A DNA stretch of 64,000 bases from contig NZ_CP016761.1 of NCBI RefSeq assembly GCF_001642935.1, positions 2,170,001 through 2,234,000 on the forward strand. The letters are read 5' to 3'. The position numbers were made by a program, and so were the translations under genes. This document shows positions 2,593-49,058 of the stretch, in pieces. The notes under the pieces are model-generated. The model was not told the DNA's origin. It saw only the letters and a program-made list of their open reading frames with translations, and did no database searches. The DNA comes from Fictibacillus arsenicus (GTDB lineage: Bacteria; Bacillota; Bacilli; Bacillales; Fictibacillaceae). Numbering within the stretch: the first letter of the stretch is position 1; the number at the start of each line of letters is the position of its first letter.

Positions 2593-2750
2593 TTAAATAC
2601 CTCCCCTGTGAACGGGTAATTAGCCCTTTCGTAATGTAATACAGAATATGTAAGGAAGGGGAAGTGGTGAGAGCGTTAGAAAGCTTATTAACGATCGAGA
2701 GTGTAGAACGCTGTCAGCAGATTGTCGACTCGTGGATAAATGGTAAAAAT

Positions 2751-2843
2751 TTTTGGATTCAGGGCTGGAATTTTTGGATTCAGACCCAAAATTTTTGGAT
2801 TGGAGCATAAAACTTTTGGATTCAGGCTCTCAACTTCTTGTTT
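2751..2843. repeat. 21-bp-phased TTTTGGATT array
   Basis: TTTTGGATT starts at 2751, 2772, 2793 and 2814, exactly 21 bp apart each time, with a degenerate fifth unit (TTCTTGTTT) at 2835. The 12-nt spacers share little beyond a frequent CAG or CAGG after the core. The array lies between the permease start and the acyltransferase stop. It gives a spurious - strand ORF in which SKN recurs every seven residues, a by-product of the 21-nt period. No known repeat family is recognised. Confidence 0.8.
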
Positions 2844-16460: not shown

Positions 16461-16592
16461 ATCAAGTGATTACTTACATAAGCAATTTCTCATTAGAGGG
16501 GTTGCTTTCATTATGTTATAAAACTCGTAACAACTCTTGTGTTTAATGTATAATAACTGTTATAGATTCAAAGTTGAAAGAGAGTGAATAGA

Positions 16593-17312
16593 ATGGGTCG
16601 TAAGTGGAATAACATTAAAGAGAAAAAAGCATCAAAAGACGCGAATACGAGTAGAATTTATGCTAAATTCGGCCGTGAAATTTACGTTGCAGCAAAACAA
16701 GGTGAGCCTGATCCTGAATCAAATCAGTCATTAAAAGTCGTTCTTGAACGAGCAAAAACATACAGTGTTCCTAAAACAATTATTGACCGTGCTATTGAAA
16801 AAGCAAAAGGCGGCTCAGATGAAAACTATGATGAGCTCCGTTATGAAGGCTTCGGTCCAAATGGTTCAATGGTGATTGTGGATACACTCACTAATAATGT
16901 TAATCGCACGGTAGCAGAAGTTCGGTCAGCATTTAATAAAAACGGCGGAAACATGGGAGTTTCCGGTGCTGTGGCTTATATGTTTGATGCAACAGCTGTA
17001 ATTGGACTTGAAGGTAAGACATCTGATGAAGTATTGGAATTATTGTTAGAAGCTGATTTAGATGTACGTGATGTCATTGAAGAAGATGAAGCTGTGATCG
17101 TTTATGCAGAACCTGATCAATTTCATGCTGTCCAAGAGGTTTTTAAGAATGCCGGCATAACAGAATTTTCAGTTGCAGAGCTTACAATGCTTGCACAGAA
17201 CGATTTGACCCTTCCTGAAGACGCACAAGTCCAGTTTGAGAAGCTGATCGACGCTTTAGAAGATCTTGAAGATGTTCAGCAAGTCTATCATAACGTTGAT
17301 TTAGGAGAATAA
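16593..17312 (+). CDS. yeeI: YebC/PmpR-family protein YeeI
   Basis: A 239-residue YebC-family protein. Family members act in the cytoplasm and have been described both as DNA-binding regulators and as factors that help ribosomes through difficult proline stretches. The sequence starts [30 protein letters not shown], which matches the Bacillus YeeI branch, rather than the YrbC branch that starts MAGHSKW. The ATG at 16593 is chosen because AAAGAGAG lies about 9 nt upstream; a GTG at 16584 overlaps that site. A TATAAT sits about 40 nt upstream of the start. It is monocistronic with its own terminator. Confidence 0.92.
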
Positions 17313-17320
17313 TAAGATGG

Positions 17321-17374
17321 AAACTGACTTGAAAGGAAAGAAATATGTCCTTGCAGAGTCAGTTTTTCTTTTTT
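17321..17374 (+). terminator. Intrinsic terminator after yeeI
   Basis: AACTGACT pairs with AGTCAGTT around a loop that itself contains a short AAGGA/TCCTT pairing, then T-rich sequence follows. Confidence 0.75.
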
Positions 17375-17416
17375 GTGGTTAATTAAAAAGGGTGATCCTG
17401 TAAAAGTACTCTGTTT

Positions 17417-17524
17417 TGAGCGAAGAAATTGATTATTGAGCGTATCACATGAATGTTGAGCGGTAAGGGATGTATTCTGAGCGTAGAGGTGTGTGTTCTG
17501 AGCGTAGATAAATTTTTTTGAGCG
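17417..17524. repeat. 20/21-bp-phased TGAGCG array
   Basis: TGAGCG begins at 17417, 17437, 17457, 17478, 17499 and 17519 (steps of 20, 20, 21, 21, 20). All six cores are exact and all but two are preceded by TT; the 14-15 nt between cores vary freely. It fills the gap between the convergent yeeI and bdbC 3' ends. Its phasing resembles the arrays near 2.8 kb and 48.9 kb, but the core differs. It makes spurious - strand ORFs with AQN/AQH periodicity. Confidence 0.85.
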
Positions 17525-17619
17525 AACGTGTAACAAATAAAAGAACACATACCGTAAATAGCTGATTCATCTACTACTTTTATTAAAAAGGCTGTTTCCC
17601 AATCTATGAGAAAAAAGCC

Positions 17620-17652
17620 ATAAAAAACAGCAACCCTTATTTTGGTTGCTGT
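17620..17652 (-). terminator. Terminator overlapping the bdbC stop codon
   Basis: On the - strand, ACAGCAACC and GGTTGCTGT pair over 9 bp around a 7-nt loop and lead into a run of six T residues. The bdbC stop codon lies in the loop. Confidence 0.85.
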
Positions 17653-18044
17653 CTTATAATTAACATACAAATTGTAATGATAACAAAACCCATTAATGCT
17701 AGCAGCGGGATTGTAATAAAGCCAAGCCAGTTAATATATTGTCCCGAACACGGCACCCCTGAAGAACACGTTTCAAAAGCTTTAAGTGCGGGTATTTTTT
17801 GCAGTGCATAATGATAACCAGAAACAAACACCCCAAGGATTGATAACGGCAAAATATAGCGGGTTATTCTAAAATCTTGATGATAAAAAGCAATTCCTAA
17901 CAAAATAACCATTGGGTACATAAGAATCCGCTGATACCAGCAAAACGTGCACGGTACAAATTGGAGTACTTCACTAAAATATAAACTTCCCAGAGATGCA
18001 ATTACAGATGCCATCCAGGCGATCAACAAGGGTTTACTCGTCAC
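17637..18044 (-). CDS. bdbC: Disulfide bond formation protein BdbC (DsbB family)
   Basis: A four-helix membrane thiol oxidoreductase that passes electrons from its partner BdbD to quinone, so that secreted proteins gain disulfide bonds. At 135 residues it has the family length. Both cysteine pairs are present: Cys32-Cys35 in PCTFCWYQR and Cys93-Cys99 in TCSSGVPC. It starts 2 nt after the bdbD stop, so the two are translationally linked and bdbD comes first on the transcript. A terminator overlaps its stop codon. In Bacillus this pair is needed for competence pseudopilin assembly and other disulfide-bearing exported proteins. Confidence 0.93.
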   Translation of the reverse strand: MTSKPLLIAWMASVIASLGSLYFSEVLQFVPCTFCWYQRILMYPMVILLGIAFYHQDFRITRYILPLSILGVFVSGYHYALQKIPALKAFETCSSGVPCSGQYINWLGFITIPLLALMGFVIITICMLIIRQQPK

Positions 18045-26949: not shown

Positions 26950-28209
26950 TTGGCACATTCATCAGTTAACACACAGATATCTCAATCAAGTAAACGGCAT
27001 TATACTACGGTTGTAACAGAATTAAGTCCTTTGCAAAAACCATGGGCTGCACTAGGAATTCTCTCAGCGCTAATATTGTTATACTTTATTGTTAATACAG
27101 CTAATTGGACTCAGGGAATTCTGTTCATTATAGGTATTTTGCTAGGAAATGCATTGCTATATGCTCGTTTTGGCTTTACTTCTGCATTTAGACGGCTAGT
27201 ATCCGTTGGTAATGTTCAAGGACTGCAAGCACATATGGTGATGCTGGCAGTTGCATCTATACTTTTTGCTGTAATTTTAAGTACAGGATTTAGCTTTACG
27301 GGATCAGCACCTGAAGGAAATGTATCACCAGTGGGAATTAGCATACTATTTGGTGCTTTCCTGTTTGGAATCGGCATGCAGCTAGGAAATGGCTGTGCTT
27401 CTGGAACATTGTATTCTTTAGGTGGCGGATCTTCTTCAATGATTCTAACCCTGATTTCTTTTATTGCAGGTTCTGTTATAGGCGCATATCATTTCACATT
27501 CTGGATGGGATTGCCTTCCCTTCCTCCAATCGCATTTAACCAGATACCTGGATTTGGCTATTTGGGTGCATTGGTATTCCAGTTAGCATTGTTTGGTTTA
27601 ATCTATTGGATCACGGTTCAAATTGCTAAAAGGAAAAATCCGCCGATGATGAAACCACTGCCGACAACTGTGGGCTGGAAAAAGGTATTGCGCGGATCAT
27701 GGCCGCTGTTTACGGCAGCAATTGTTTTAGCAGTATTGAATGCAGTAACTTTAGCGGTTAAAGGAAGTCCTTGGGGTATCACTTCAGCATTTGCACTATG
27801 GGGTTCAAAAGCGTTGATGGCAACTGGAGTTGATGTATCAAGCTGGGGTTATTTCGCTGGAAGCAAAGGTGATGCTTTAACAAAAAGTGTTCTTACAGAT
27901 GCAACGAGTGTAATGAACTTTGGAATTATATTAGGAGCTTTTATATCTGCTGCTTTTCAAGGAACATTTAAGCCTGGCAAAATTAAACCAGGAATTGCGG
28001 GAGCTTCTATTATTGGTGGTTTATTGATGGGCTACGGTGCGCGTTTAGCATTTGGCTGCAACATCGGTGCTTACTTCAGCGGAATTGCGTCCTTTAGCCT
28101 TCACGGCTGGGTTTGGGGAATAATGGCGATGGCAGGAACATTCTTAGCCCTATTTATTCGTCCGTTATTTGGATTAAAAAACCCAAAATCAAATGATTCT
28201 GTTTGTTAA
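26950..28209 (+). CDS. YeeE/YedE-family sulfur-compound transporter
   Basis: A 419-residue membrane protein of the YeeE/YedE family; characterised relatives (TsuA) import thiosulfate. It contains the two internally homologous halves with the family's conserved cysteines: GMQLGNGCASGTLYSLGGGS in the first half and RLAFGCNIGAYFSGIASFSLHGW in the second. About 10-12 helices are present. The start is the TTG at 26950, directly after AGGAGG with a 6-nt spacer. Thiosulfate is the likeliest substrate by homology. No TusA-like partner gene adjoins it, although the sulfur-assimilation region begins only 6 kb away. Confidence 0.88.
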   Translation: MAHSSVNTQISQSSKRHYTTVVTELSPLQKPWAALGILSALILLYFIVNTANWTQGILFIIGILLGNALLYARFGFTSAFRRLVSVGNVQGLQAHMVMLAVASILFAVILSTGFSFTGSAPEGNVSPVGISILFGAFLFGIGMQLGNGCASGTLYSLGGGSSSMILTLISFIAGSVIGAYHFTFWMGLPSLPPIAFNQIPGFGYLGALVFQLALFGLIYWITVQIAKRKNPPMMKPLPTTVGWKKVLRGSWPLFTAAIVLAVLNAVTLAVKGSPWGITSAFALWGSKALMATGVDVSSWGYFAGSKGDALTKSVLTDATSVMNFGIILGAFISAAFQGTFKPGKIKPGIAGASIIGGLLMGYGARLAFGCNIGAYFSGIASFSLHGWVWGIMAMAGTFLALFIRPLFGLKNPKSNDSVC

Positions 28210-28213
28210 AAGA

Positions 28214-28258
28214 AAAAGCTAGTGGCTGGATATTTACATCTCCTCACCACTAGCTTTT
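28214..28258. terminator. Bidirectional terminator
   Basis: A perfect 12-bp stem, AAAAGCTAGTGG with CCACTAGCTTTT, surrounds a 21-nt loop. It ends both the transporter gene and, on the - strand, the beta-lactamase-like gene whose stop codon overlaps its right arm. Confidence 0.85.
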
Positions 28259-29084
28259 ATTTATATACCTTACTTAATACAATTGATCTTTCATACAGCA
28301 ATAATCCTAATTCACCCATTATTCGTTTTGGTTCATCTCGATTCGGTACGTTTTTACCAAGTGCGGTAATAGCAAAGGTTTGCCCTGGCAAATAAAACAA
28401 TCCTGCATTATGTTCAACACCTGGTACATAACCTGTTTTATGCGCCATTTCCCAAATCGGAATCGTTCCGATAACACCGTCATTTTCAGGAAGAAGACTT
28501 GGCAGTAAACCATTCATCTTTTGCTGCTTCATAATATCTACCATTTTGCTGCAAACACTCATGGATACGATATTGCCCATAGCTATATTTCTTAGAAAAT
28601 TATTGATTTCCTTTGCTGTTATTAAATTTGATTCATTATGTTTCCTCGATGGTTTAATTTGAAGTTTATGACGAAATTGGGTTGTCTTAAAGCCCCAAAT
28701 TGTCATGTACAGCTGAATGTTCTCAACTCCTATCAAATCGATTAAAAGGTTTGTAGCTGTATTATCACTTTCAATGATCATCAGTACCACAAGATCATGA
28801 ATCGTCCATTCCATACCTGGTGATAAATTCTTCAAAATACCGTCACCTGAAACAATATCTTCTGATCGTATTTGAATTTTATCAGATAATGAACGTTTCC
28901 CTTCAGCCACTTGAGCAAACACCGCTGACATGATGGGTAATTTAATGATGCTAGCCGCATAGAATTCCTCATTCTGATTATGTGAAAACTCTTCTTCTGT
29001 TTCGAAGTGATAAATCGAAACCCCATATACTCCTTTTCCAGAAGAAATCAAATGCAAAAGATCATTCTCTATCAATTTCAGCAT
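28257..29084 (-). CDS. Class A beta-lactamase-like serine hydrolase without signal peptide
   Basis: A 275-residue penicillin-recognising enzyme. All three core motifs are present: SxxK at Ser45-Lys48 (ASIIKLP), SDN at 106-108 (IESDNTA) and KTG at 216-218 (AHKTGYVPG). The omega-loop ExxLN glutamate that deacylates beta-lactams is not clearly present; HNESNLI near residue 149 is the closest. No signal peptide or lipobox precedes the domain, so it looks cytoplasmic or leaderless. It may be an esterase or peptidase rather than a resistance enzyme. The ATG has GAAGGT upstream. Confidence 0.85.
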   Translation of the reverse strand: MLKLIENDLLHLISSGKGVYGVSIYHFETEEEFSHNQNEEFYAASIIKLPIMSAVFAQVAEGKRSLSDKIQIRSEDIVSGDGILKNLSPGMEWTIHDLVVLMIIESDNTATNLLIDLIGVENIQLYMTIWGFKTTQFRHKLQIKPSRKHNESNLITAKEINNFLRNIAMGNIVSMSVCSKMVDIMKQQKMNGLLPSLLPENDGVIGTIPIWEMAHKTGYVPGVEHNAGLFYLPGQTFAITALGKNVPNRDEPKRIMGELGLLLYERSIVLSKVYK

Positions 29085-29225
29085 ATCCGCTTACCTTCTT
29101 TCTTTAATAATGAAATGTGTTTATTTACCTATGATTAAATTACTTAATTCGTCGCATTTACAATGAAAGTTTTTAAAAATAGACTGATAGCGTTAAGTAA
29201 CTTAAGTGGTAAAGGAGCGAAAAAA

Positions 29226-30407
29226 ATGAAAAAGCAAATATGTATAGTCGGAAGCGGTACATCGGGTTTGCAGCTTGCTTACGCACTTAAAGAAGATTTC
29301 GTTGTTACAGTCATTCACGCTAGCTCTGCGGAAAAAATCCGTTCAGGACGTGTCATGTCTACTCAAGTACATTTTGGTACAACACGAGCACGGGAAAGCA
29401 GATTTCATATGCCAAAATGGGATGATAGTAATCCACTGAAGAGTATTCATATCACAATCGGAACTCAAAAATTATTTACAGGGATGTTAAAAGAAGATGC
29501 ATTGTCTGTAGATCAGCGACTTTATTATTCCGCGTGTATGAACGACCTTGAATCAAATGGGGTTACATTTCGTCAGTTTAAATTAACTACTGAGTACTTA
29601 GAGCAGTTAGTAGATGATTATGACCTAGTGATTGACTGTACAGGAAAATCAGGCCCTCTCTTCCCTTTCCCTATTATTAGTGAACTTTCCCCATTTGATA
29701 TGCCCCAGCGAAAATGCATCACTGGCTACTTTTTAGGGATTAAACCTAATGTACCTTTAGGTGTAAATGTAACTGTACTTCCTGAAACCGGTGAAATGTT
29801 TGAAATTCCCGCCGTTACAGAACAAGGCCCTGTCACGATACTATTCATTATGGCTGTGCCAGACAAAGAACTAGATACTTTTAAAGGTGTCAAGGACCAT
29901 ATTGAATTCACTATGCAAATGAAACAATCTGTTCAAAAATTCTTCCCTGAGATATACAGACGAATGAATATAGAGGAATTCGCTTTAACGGATGAGAATG
30001 CCTTCCTTCAAGTTGCAATTAATCCGGAAATTCGAAAGCCTTATCTAACCTTTAATGATAAACTCATTGTTGGATGCGGTGACAGTGTTTTTCTTAATGA
30101 TCCTATCACTGGTCAGGGCTGTAATCTCTCATCTTATTGTGCAGAGCAGTTATATGAAACCCTGATTGATTATAAACATGACAAATGGGATGAAAACCTA
30201 GGTGAAACATATTGGGATCGAACAAAAGAATATGTAAAAGAAGTCACTGAATGGACAAACGCAATGACACAGCCCCTTCCACAGCATGTCGTTCAATTAT
30301 TAATGAATGGTGCAAAGAATCAGGAACAAGCTGATCGTATAGCGGAGTGGTTTGCTGATCCAAAATCAGCTCATGAAGCCTTTTTCCAAAAACAAGGATC
30401 TAATTAA
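29226..30407 (+). CDS. Styrene/indole monooxygenase-like FAD protein (StyA family)
   Basis: A 393-residue flavoprotein related to the epoxidase component of two-component styrene/indole monooxygenases. The FAD-binding Rossmann loop is at the very N-terminus (ICIVGSGTSGLQLAYAL), and the second FAD motif is VGCGDSVFLNDPITGQGCN near residue 296. The middle region fits the StyA substrate-binding domain. The start is the ATG at 29226 with AAAGGAG upstream; an earlier in-frame ATG (29163) lacks one. Such enzymes need reduced FAD from a separate reductase, and no styB-like gene is nearby. The substrate is unknown. Its terminator was hit by the IS pair. Confidence 0.85.
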   Translation: MKKQICIVGSGTSGLQLAYALKEDFVVTVIHASSAEKIRSGRVMSTQVHFGTTRARESRFHMPKWDDSNPLKSIHITIGTQKLFTGMLKEDALSVDQRLYYSACMNDLESNGVTFRQFKLTTEYLEQLVDDYDLVIDCTGKSGPLFPFPIISELSPFDMPQRKCITGYFLGIKPNVPLGVNVTVLPETGEMFEIPAVTEQGPVTILFIMAVPDKELDTFKGVKDHIEFTMQMKQSVQKFFPEIYRRMNIEEFALTDENAFLQVAINPEIRKPYLTFNDKLIVGCGDSVFLNDPITGQGCNLSSYCAEQLYETLIDYKHDKWDENLGETYWDRTKEYVKEVTEWTNAMTQPLPQHVVQLLMNGAKNQEQADRIAEWFADPKSAHEAFFQKQGSN

Positions 30408-30414
30408 ACACAAA

Positions 30415-30437
30415 AAAGCACCCTGTGAAGGTGCTTT
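30415..30437. repeat. Left 23-bp target duplication (terminator hairpin) of the IS pair
   Basis: AAAGCACC-loop-GGTGCTTT, an 8-bp stem with a 7-nt loop. The same 23 bp recur at 33513-33535 on the other side of the IS pair. The A-run to its left survives, but the T-run that should follow on the right was displaced by the insertion. Confidence 0.92.
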
Positions 30438-30449
30438 CAGAACGTAGAC

Positions 30450-30494
30450 AAACCCCATCTCAAATTGATTTGAGATGGGGTTTGTTCATTTTTT
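30450..30494 (+). terminator. Inward-facing terminator at left end of IS copy A
   Basis: A perfect 15-bp stem, AAACCCCATCTCAAA with TTTGAGATGGGGTTT, loop TTGA, then GTTCATTTTTT. It would stop outside transcription entering the element from the left. Confidence 0.85.
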
Positions 30495-30524
30495 CTAGGT
30501 TTTCCAAAGGAATTCTAGCTTAAC

Positions 30525-31268
30525 TTACACTGGACATGGACCTCGCCATGTCCAGTTTGCCAGTTTTTTAAGATTCATGGCAGCGAAAGTAAGCATCGCG
30601 TGCGCGGAAACTTTTTTAAGCCCTCTCAGCTTCGTCCAACGCATACCATGCTTTTCTTTTGCATCAGCGAAGACACGTTCAATCGTTTCTTTTCGCTGTG
30701 CATATATTTTTTTATTCTCCTCCGTATGACGAAGGTGATCGGCTTCCTCCAAGTACTCCTCCCAGATGTGCCGGTGGATCATCTTGATGTGCTGTTTACT
30801 CTGCGTACATTGAGAAAGCAAAGGACACTGTTTGCACTTCAAAGGATTGGAAGCGTATTGACGATAGCCCTCGCGGGTCGTCGTTCTATAGGGTAACGTT
30901 TCGCCTTGCGGACATATGTATTGATCGTAATGTTCATCGTAAACATATTCGTACTTCTTCATGTATCCATCTTTGGTTTTCGGTCGTGTGTAAGGCATTA
31001 CTGGGCGAATTTCCTGGTCCATCAAAAACTTGGCAATCGGCGGTGTTTTATATCCTGCATCTACAGCTAAGGCGTTCGGTTTTCCTACGTTTTCTAACAA
31101 CTGATTTACAAGTGGCTCGAGCATTCTACTGTCATGAACATTGGCTCCGGTGACGAGACTTCCAAGAATAAAACCTCTTGAATCACTGGCGGTGTGAAAA
31201 GAGTACGCAAACAGCTTTTCCCGTTCGTCCTTTACATAGTAGCCACTCTCCGGATCCGTAGTGCTCAC
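30525..31268 (-). CDS. IS1182-type transposase, C-terminal part (orfB), copy A
   Basis: This frame encodes 247 residues from a nominal GTG. The normal product is probably a -1 frameshift fusion with orfA (about 451 residues in total, the usual IS1182 length). It holds the rest of the DDE domain: the second acidic residue in NALAVDAGYKTPP and the distal acidic region RKETIERVFADAKEKHG. A cysteine-rich insertion (ICPQGETL, LKCKQCPLLSQC) is typical of the family. No ribosome binding site precedes the GTG, which favours frameshifting over independent initiation. Confidence 0.85.
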   Translation of the reverse strand: MSTTDPESGYYVKDEREKLFAYSFHTASDSRGFILGSLVTGANVHDSRMLEPLVNQLLENVGKPNALAVDAGYKTPPIAKFLMDQEIRPVMPYTRPKTKDGYMKKYEYVYDEHYDQYICPQGETLPYRTTTREGYRQYASNPLKCKQCPLLSQCTQSKQHIKMIHRHIWEEYLEEADHLRHTEENKKIYAQRKETIERVFADAKEKHGMRWTKLRGLKKVSAHAMLTFAAMNLKKLANWTWRGPCPV

Positions 31269-31303
31269 TTTAACTTCTTTCGTATCTTCTTTTGTTTGAG
31301 GGG

Positions 31304-31879
31304 TTAGTGCTTTTTTCCGTGTGCCTCACGGTCGATATTGATTTCTTCTTCAAGTTTGTTTTGATAGCTGCGCGTTTCCACACGTACTATCTTCTTATCA
31401 AACTTCTTCTTATTGGCATTGGCTTTCACATGCGTGGAATCGATAAAAGCAATAGTGGGATCAACCAGACCATAATTCGTAGCTTCACGTAGAATCCGAT
31501 AGAAGATCTGTTCGAAAAGATCACTATCATGGAAACGACGTGCGTAATTCTTCCCGAACGTTGAAAAATGAGGTATCTTCTCGCTGAAGTCATAGCCTAA
31601 AAACCAACGATAAGCGACATTCGTTTCAATCTCTTTTATCGTTTGGCGCATTGATCGAATACCAAATAAATATTGAAGGAGCACCATTTTGACTAAAACA
31701 ACAGGGTCCACGCTCGGTCTGCCATTATCCAAAGAATATGTATGTTTTACGGCATCATAAATAAAGTCAAAATCCATGACTTGATCAATTTTTCGTACCA
31801 AATGATCCTGAGGTACAAGCTCGTCAAGAGCTGCTAGAGTAACTTGGTGACGTCCTTCAGTAGAATGCTTAGATAACAT
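31304..31879 (-). CDS. IS1182-type transposase, N-terminal part (orfA), copy A
   Basis: 191 residues, starting at the ATG at 31879 with AGGGGAG 8 nt upstream; the first in-frame TTG (31897) overlaps that site. It carries the family's N-terminal domain (DHLVRKIDQVMDF, RPSVDPVVLVKMVLLQYLFGIRSMRQ) and the first catalytic aspartate in IAFIDSTHVKANANKKK. It stops a few codons past the slippery heptamer A-AAA-AAG, from which a -1 shift enters orfB without loss of any family sequence. Confidence 0.87.
   Translation of the reverse strand: MLSKHSTEGRHQVTLAALDELVPQDHLVRKIDQVMDFDFIYDAVKHTYSLDNGRPSVDPVVLVKMVLLQYLFGIRSMRQTIKEIETNVAYRWFLGYDFSEKIPHFSTFGKNYARRFHDSDLFEQIFYRILREATNYGLVDPTIAFIDSTHVKANANKKKFDKKIVRVETRSYQNKLEEEINIDREAHGKKH
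31310..31316 (-). other. Slippery heptamer A-AAA-AAG for -1 frameshift, copy A
   Basis: In the orfA frame the codons read GGA AAA AAG CAC TAA. A slip of one base back at A-AAA-AAG yields KKALTPQTKEDTKEV and runs into orfB. A GAGG 7 nt upstream could act as a stimulatory internal ribosome binding site. Copy B has the same heptamer at 32861-32867. Confidence 0.75.
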
Positions 31880-31921
31880 GTAAATTTCTCCCCTCAAACA
31901 TTATCTAATTTAATTCTACAA

Positions 31922-31960
31922 TAAAAAAAGCTTGTAGACATCTGACTTTGTCTACAAGCT
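31922..31960 (-). terminator. Inward-facing terminator at right end of IS copy A
   Basis: On the - strand AGCTTGTAGACA pairs with TGTCTACAAGCT over 12 bp, followed by seven T residues. The inverted repeat itself forms one arm. It faces into the element, upstream of the transposase gene. Confidence 0.85.
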
Positions 31961-31961
31961 G

Positions 31962-31988
31962 AGAGGTCTCTTCTTATAAGAGACCTCT
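31962..31988. repeat. 27-bp foreign hairpin between the two IS copies
   Basis: AGAGGTCTCT-TCTTATA-AGAGACCTCT: perfect 10-bp arms and a 7-nt loop, exactly filling the space between the two elements. It is unlike the 23-bp hairpin duplicated outside, so it comes from a different insertion site. Confidence 0.9.
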
Positions 31989-32000
31989 CAGAACGTAGAC

Positions 32001-48900: not shown

Positions 48901-48922
48901 TTATGTAAAAAATTGTTAAATA

Positions 48923-49040
48923 ATGTGATGAAGTCCATTTTTTTATGTAATGAGATGGGATTTTTATATGATTAGTCAAAAAAATTATGTGATGAAATGG
49001 AGAAATTATGTGATAATTCGTTTTTGGCTAAATAATCGCA
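48923..49040. repeat. 21/22-bp-phased ATGTGATG array
   Basis: ATGTGATG-like cores start at 48923, 48945 (ATGTAATG), 48966 (ATATGATT), 48987 and 49008 (ATGTGATA), spaced 22, 21, 21 and 21 bp, with a degenerate unit near 49030. It fills the space between the metY terminator and the LysR gene's 3' end. The period matches the arrays near 2.8 and 17.4 kb, but the core is different. Confidence 0.7.
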
Positions 49041-49058
49041 TGATTCTTAGTTAAAGAA

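Follow-up and report, generated by a model that had tools for sequence, protein, structure and literature searches.

A dispersed TGAGCG array element of Fictibacillus within a class of intergenic arrays that share a 20-21-bp step

Described intergenic repeats and the TGAGCG array

CRISPR arrays combine repeats longer than about 20 bp with unique spacers, and plasmid iterons follow one another at about two helical turns. The BOX elements of pneumococcus and the bcr1 elements of Bacillus cereus are dispersed between genes in many copies, each of modular build and about 150 bp long, and we know of no phased 6-bp cores in either. REP sequences and BIMEs are associated with gyrase binding and with proposed roles in supercoiling and termination. 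In the excerpt available from PMC3733652, the REPs of enterobacteria are many short extragenic copies of palindromes of 20-40 bp; similarly, the available part of PMC4980987 presents plasmid iterons as several direct repeats whose core is specific to one binding protein, and the excerpted survey of prokaryotic satellites in PMC6749651 gives 18 of 119 bacterial species as exceeding 4 per Mb.

The stretch analysed here, 64,000 nucleotides of Fictibacillus arsenicus DNA (the window), contains six exact TGAGCG cores on the + strand (17417..17524), which start at 17417, 17437, 17457, 17478, 17499 and 17519 and follow one another at 20, 20, 21, 21 and 20 bp, exactly as the original prediction had stated. 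A set of 60 dinucleotide-preserving shuffles of the window produced no 6-mer with at least four copies at 19-23 bp and, in total, 24 cases with three copies at this spacing; the real window had two places of the four-copy kind, the TGAGCG array and another at 2.75 kb. The objection raised beforehand, that shuffled sequence might give such arrays as often, failed, as these shuffles gave none. As had also been noted, the array lies between two gene 3' ends, that of an upstream + strand gene (16584..17312), whose translation we take to be YebC/PmpR-like, and that of a convergent - strand gene (17637..18044), presumably BdbC-like. The yebC-like gene is followed by an intrinsic terminator (17320..17376, +; stem AACTGACT/AGTCAGTT and then a T-run), which was identified by eye and is absent from the output of a terminator scan that took loops of 3-8 only; then come the array and a terminator-like stem with T-run of the bdbC-like gene (17610..17652, -; stem at 17627-17652 on the + strand from the scan, T-run on the - strand by eye).

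The predicted extent of 17417..17524 holds for the cores; the element itself is longer, since the adjoining positions 17525-17555 belong to it too. Copy alignments and module pattern counts revealed that TGAGCG boxes at 20 or 21 bp are followed by a conserved 3' end module of 31 bp (17525..17555 on the + strand in the window), with the consensus AACGTGTAAYARATAAAAGAACACGTACCGT. The module contains a dyad (17526..17550, positions by eye) with the left half ACGTGT at 17526-17531 and the right half ACACAT at 17545-17550, the latter one base off the usual ACACGT. The window array belongs to a dispersed element of Fictibacillus, about 150 bp long and here called F1, of which it is a single copy; F1 consists of six TT-TGAGCG-WA sites and this dyad end module.

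A DNA search of the array's own genome listed 40 matches, every one of those scored. A 30-base module pattern with up to three mismatches was found 51 times in this source genome (G000) and its reversed control not once, and TGAGCG-N12-18-TGAGCG occurred 151 times, a few of them in non-F1 arrays, against 7 for the reversed control. The strict module pattern was present in 16 of the 18 genomes of the genus. Among named genomes, the four-core TGAGCG pattern marked at least 118 loci, and the 18 of these that also carry the module were all (18/18) from Fictibacillus. F1 represents a new family of dispersed repeats.

Exactly six cores were counted in 27 of 42 copies in the source genome, with fewer in 15 and more in none; when 19 copies from genome G014 were included, the 61 copies comprised 27 and 12 with six cores, one with seven and 21 with fewer. 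The step between adjacent exact cores was 20 bp in 106 cases and 21 bp in 57, and the allowed steps of 19 and 22 bp did not occur. The unit motif is approximately TT-TGAGCG-WA, farther bases being weakly biased, and about 6-10 bp per unit are conserved. The spacers had been called unrelated, which is only partly right, because a subset of copies has common spacers in the same order; they are not wholly free. The claim that the array is not CRISPR stands, given this short conservation and spacers that are inherited and drift between species.

Five F1 copies lie within about 18 kb, among genes that appear metabolic from their translation starts, and no recombinase and no rep gene was recognised among the translation starts read in this stretch. 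In addition, a second dispersed repeat (GAGACTCC...CGGTGAGCC...GCGGAAAGCGAGC) was seen beside F1 copies or occupying that gap in a different species (L158 and L160; upstream of the source-genome copies L151, L153 and L277).

By description, F1 is similar to BOX and bcr1, as it is modular, intergenic, about 150 bp long and present in many copies. With REPs and BIMEs, for which roles in supercoiling and termination have been proposed, the arrays share the many short extragenic copies; however, REPs are palindromes of 20-40 bp, whereas the array cores are short, asymmetric and direct and are locked at 20-21 bp. As the one dyad of F1 is in its module, F1 was not assigned to REP/BIME. Chi-site and DnaA-box readings of the cores were weighed by eye only.

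A class of arrays with one phase and many cores

The original prediction of a genome-wide class, fixed in phase and differing in core by locus, was borne out by a scan presupposing neither core nor spacing and by a one-mismatch scan. The former looked for an exact 6-mer present at least four times at a spacing of d to d+1, with d from 8 to 60, in 400 kb of the source genome, 400 kb of a relative (G006) and the window. At 20-21 bp it found 21, 20 and 2 loci, respectively, these counts taking in a few loci in called coding sequence and, in G006, one long array listed twice. The overlapping bins of 19-20 and 21-22 bp held 5 and 6 loci in the source genome, 4 and 13 in G006, and 0 and 1 in the window. 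The remaining bins between 8 and 60 bp, which served as controls for spacing, were empty in the source genome and the window and held one locus each at 17, 18, 39, 40, 59 and 60 bp in G006, four of these six being multiples of the period. With one mismatch allowed, the loci at 20-21 bp rose to 37, 44 and 3, against 0-6, 0-7 and 0-2 at spacings outside 19-21 bp.

Over 88 arrays, picked at 20-21 bp with steps of 19-22 bp allowed, 283 of 291 adjacent exact cores were 20-21 bp apart and the other 8 were at 19 or 22 bp. The cores of the class include TGAGCG, TGCGTG, CATAGA, TTTTGGATT, ACCGAACAAA, CACATAAA, TCATAAA and TTTCACGAGA. In the autocorrelation of intergenic DNA, lag 21 (z 3.3) was second to lag 3 (z 3.5); as lag 21 is raised in coding DNA too, this measure was of little help. 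F1 is one family of this wider phase-locked class, in which a common 20-21-bp step is combined with many cores.

Two further arrays, which had been placed at 2.75 and 48.9 kb of the window, are both real. The former, from the exact scan, has the core TTTTGGATT at 21 bp on the + strand (2732..2830) and belongs to family F3; the latter (48916..49050, limits approximate, no strand assigned), with the core TTATGTGAT at about 20-21 bp, belongs to family F5 and is weaker, as one mismatch was needed to find it. At about 194.9 kb of G006:C1 (L200), about 12 nearly identical GATTTACGAGCG units of 20 bp form a VNTR-like array.

Considerable variation was observed among other genomes. Exact 20-21-bp arrays numbered 4, 4 and 9 per 100 kb in G007, G015 and G011, respectively, and the arrays printed for G007 and G015 have cores other than TGAGCG. 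As G017, placed in the same genus, had no exact 20-21-bp array in 100 kb, the class is not essential. Two exact arrays were found in 64 kb of G018, which represents another genus of the same family. Seven genomes from other families of the order had no exact array: G022, G024, G027 and G029 (100 kb each) gave 3, 1, 1 and 2 arrays with one mismatch, and G021, G023 and G028 (82-100 kb each) gave 0, 1 and 0; 50 kb of E. coli had none, exact or with one mismatch. At loci chosen for a TGAGCG array, other-core arrays of the same phase were observed in Sporosarcina (4 in 148 kb) and Tenuibacillus (1 in 8 kb). TGAGCG arrays occur in many Bacillales and also in other phyla, where, among the matches listed, they come closer to plain satellites. 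In Bacillus niameyensis (L065), a chain of 90 TGAGCG boxes with a 20-bp step constitutes a true satellite, in contrast to F1.

Location and change at orthologous sites

The arrays favour gaps between convergent genes. Enrichment at 3' ends, which had been put forward as a check, was found in both genomes scanned: 3'-3' gaps, which make up 29 of 183 gaps in the source genome and 36 of 204 in G006, held 17 of 32 and 18 of 36 intergenic arrays (one G006 array listed twice), a preference with p of about 1e-6 and 1e-5 relative to gap counts, on crude gene calls and leaving out arrays in called coding sequence or at an edge (5 of 37 and 8 of 44). One array in each genome was in a 5'-5' gap. Between two divergent genes that appear EamA-like from their translations, both species carry six ATTAGGTCTA units with a step of about 21 bp (G000:C1 about 3710007 and G006:C1 about 328501); this array differs from the others in its position at 5' ends and resembles an operator cluster.

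Array presence varies between species at many sites. The yebC-bdbC site, readable in 16 of 18 genomes, has F1 in four and short gaps in nine; G016 has a GCGATT array at 21 bp instead, G011 a decayed one (by eye) and G001 another repeat. Between the source genome and G006, 104 of 208 gaps were paired, 13 of them with an array of at least four exact cores on at least one side, and alignment of 11 of these 13 revealed absence, differences in unit number, another family in place, good conservation (locus 96) and, at two sites, a different core. At locus 209 the module is kept, and all six of the G006 units, with one mismatch allowed, show TGCGTG instead of TGAGCG. At locus 281 the module is likewise kept, and five of the six G006 units contain TGCGTG, the core next to the module still being TGAGCG; G014 has TGCGTG in five of six there too. 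Since the spacers differ as well at these two sites, recombination may have swapped in another array, with no core-by-core alteration.

The 22 orthologous F1 pairs from G000, G014 and G006 allowed cores and spacers to be compared. Six pairs were set aside, and in the 16 whose two sides agreed in core and each had six units, 20 of 569 core positions differed (3.5%), against 252 of 1142 spacer positions (22.1%) and 22 of 493 module positions (4.5%), after 21 mixed or gapped columns had been dropped. The contrast (Fisher p 1.5e-27) comes from pairs that share genomes and are not fully independent, and the location of cores with up to two mismatches leans towards core conservation, but hardly sixfold. 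Thus, cores and module are held while the spacers drift, and this conservation lends indirect support to the earlier suggestion that a putative protein binds the array on the same DNA face.

Slipped-strand growth had been offered as the alternative, and slippage does also occur: whole-unit differences between species, by gain or loss, were seen in L138/L280 and at locus 305, and by eye G011 has 42-bp higher-order units. Such observations would be expected if the arrays were neutral minisatellites that grow by slippage with a mechanical preference for two helical turns and have no function. However, slippage copies whole units, whereas at orthologous sites the cores stay and the spacers drift; hardly any other period between 8 and 60 bp appeared in the exact scan, and in F1 a constant module usually follows six units. 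We consider neutral minisatellites improbable. F1 itself was not classed as a minisatellite or VNTR, as its spacers differ while its cores match and six units are found in 27 of 42 copies. With the prokaryotic satellites of the PMC6749651 excerpt the arrays share the tandem and mostly short form; satellites, in contrast, repeat the whole unit, and here the core alone is repeated, with 32 and 36 such intergenic loci in 400 kb when one mismatch is allowed.

As direct repeats about two helical turns apart, the arrays are also similar to iterons, which have a core-specific protein, and the phase of F1 fits that comparison; F1, however, is dispersed in the chromosome behind genes, with no rep gene recognised in the one F1-rich stretch and no plasmid or phage match for the copies searched. 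Chromosomal decoys for plasmid or phage replication initiators, that is, iteron mimics with cores shifting in an arms race, would account for direct repeats of similar spacing and for cores that vary between species and between orthologous sites. We nevertheless judge them highly improbable, as one F1 copy was unmatched in plasmids or phages and the F3 array in plasmids, where Fictibacillus is probably thinly sampled, and exact module and F3 patterns were absent from IMG/VR. A bare four-core TGAGCG array was present in three IMG/VR contigs (L256, L257 and L258).

Replication polarity and a putative boundary role

With dnaA at 4.04 Mb and a GC skew that changes sign at about 28-32 kb of the window, the replication terminus was taken as 2.20 Mb, and the skew flip at 28000-32000 indicates that the window spans the likely terminus. 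A search of the window for a dif site of the B. subtilis type, with up to three mismatches allowed, gave none. Relative to this terminus, 43 of 51 F1 copies are oriented with the fork: 13 of 15 in convergent gaps, 4 of 4 in fork-opposed tandem gaps, 15 of 20 in fork-wise tandem gaps and 3 of 3 in gaps called divergent, nine having no context. Pooling all 51 copies gave no difference from a gene bias assumed to be 75% (p 0.15), and the polarity stands out only where gene direction cannot explain it, in the convergent and fork-opposed tandem gaps taken together (17 of 19 fork-wise, p 0.0007). Similarly, 9 of 10 F3 arrays, picked by hand, were fork-wise; F2 had no fork polarity (4 of 9).

This polarity bears on the proposal that arrays act as RNA, in the form of a sponge, a terminator or a processing signal. 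Being behind genes, the arrays could be reached by read-through; however, in the gaps that separate the two, the polarity of F1 tracks the fork and not the gene, and the window array is beyond a terminator identified by eye. In addition, the window copy folds no better than shuffles (z -0.75 and 0.48), the sole Rfam match in its vicinity scores 19.7 bits, far short of the family's cut-off of 58, and no double change was found in the dyad among 85 modules, six of them out of register. Structured RNA was rejected on the absence of dyad covariation and on Rfam and folding of the window copy, and we find a role as RNA barely credible. The ordinary folding of the window copy and the lack of double changes make double-stranded DNA the likelier substrate.

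F1 might instead be a non-autonomous mobile element whose cores are transposase sites and whose dyad is an end signal, inserted as single-stranded DNA at the fork and accumulating behind terminators, where it does no harm. We regard this as rather unlikely, although 51 module copies dispersed in one genome, the presence of F1 at the yebC-bdbC site in just four of 16 readable genomes and the fork-wise direction of 43 of 51 copies, among them 13 of the 15 in convergent gaps and all 4 in fork-opposed tandem gaps, speak for it. In the available part of PMC6006769, the lagging-strand template is given as the target of two members of the IS200/IS605 family, IS608 and ISDra2, and the fork polarity of F1 fits such targeting. 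Against mobility, cores kept while spacers drift at orthologous sites would be unexpected of dead insertions, the single Y1 transposase gene found, at 3.685 Mb, is separated by about 21 kb from the closest F1 copy listed, no terminal inverted repeat was seen by eye, one closely viewed empty/filled pair (locus 197) had no clear target duplication, single-strand folding of the window copy is weak, and the common phase of the other families is left unexplained. An IS200/IS605- or RAYT-mobilised element was likewise not recognised, as the Y1 gene is unlinked and the window copy folds no better than shuffles, although the fork polarity would fit. The dispersal together with the fork polarity suggests that F1 copies spread, perhaps through single-stranded DNA at forks, which is compatible with a boundary role; selection on the cores could also serve mobility instead of a role in the host.

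On balance, and with moderate confidence, we favour the reading that the two-turn arrays and the dyad module are same-face sites of a putative, fast-evolving DNA-binding protein system that marks the ends of transcription units. The two-turn spacing, the conserved short cores, the drifting spacers and the ordinary folding are consistent with an oligomerising protein that attaches to one face of double-stranded DNA at each core, and the placement between terminators suggests a boundary role. We propose that a sequence-specific putative protein, probably from a related family of differing specificities, binds each core; the two-turn step would set the bound subunits on one face of the DNA, where contact between them could build a short nucleoprotein filament that the end module would close at one end. 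Between the terminators of neighbouring, often convergent genes, such a filament would most likely be a transcription-unit boundary, which would stop read-through or fix local DNA topology. The original prediction did not include the end module, the dispersal of the element, its polarity relative to replication or the switching of cores.

More tentatively, Fictibacillus and some other Bacillales may have hundreds of phase-locked putative docking arrays at transcription-unit ends, with fast-evolving protein specificities, different cores at the same site in sister species and, for F1, orientation by replication, which would amount to a chromatin-like boundary system not described before. Among the titles and abstract openings listed from an open-licence library, none described such arrays or a counterpart of a class with one phase and many cores, which is weak evidence of novelty.

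Mobile arrays would constitute a transposon family of an unusual kind, polarised by the fork and lacking a visible transposase. Bound arrays would instead provide dense specific protein sites at bacterial gene ends, set by a two-turn ruler, with cores that differ in concert between species. They would then offer a testable case of co-evolution of a bacterial DNA-binding protein with hundreds of sites, as well as a new handle on the separation of convergent genes, replication and DNA topology.
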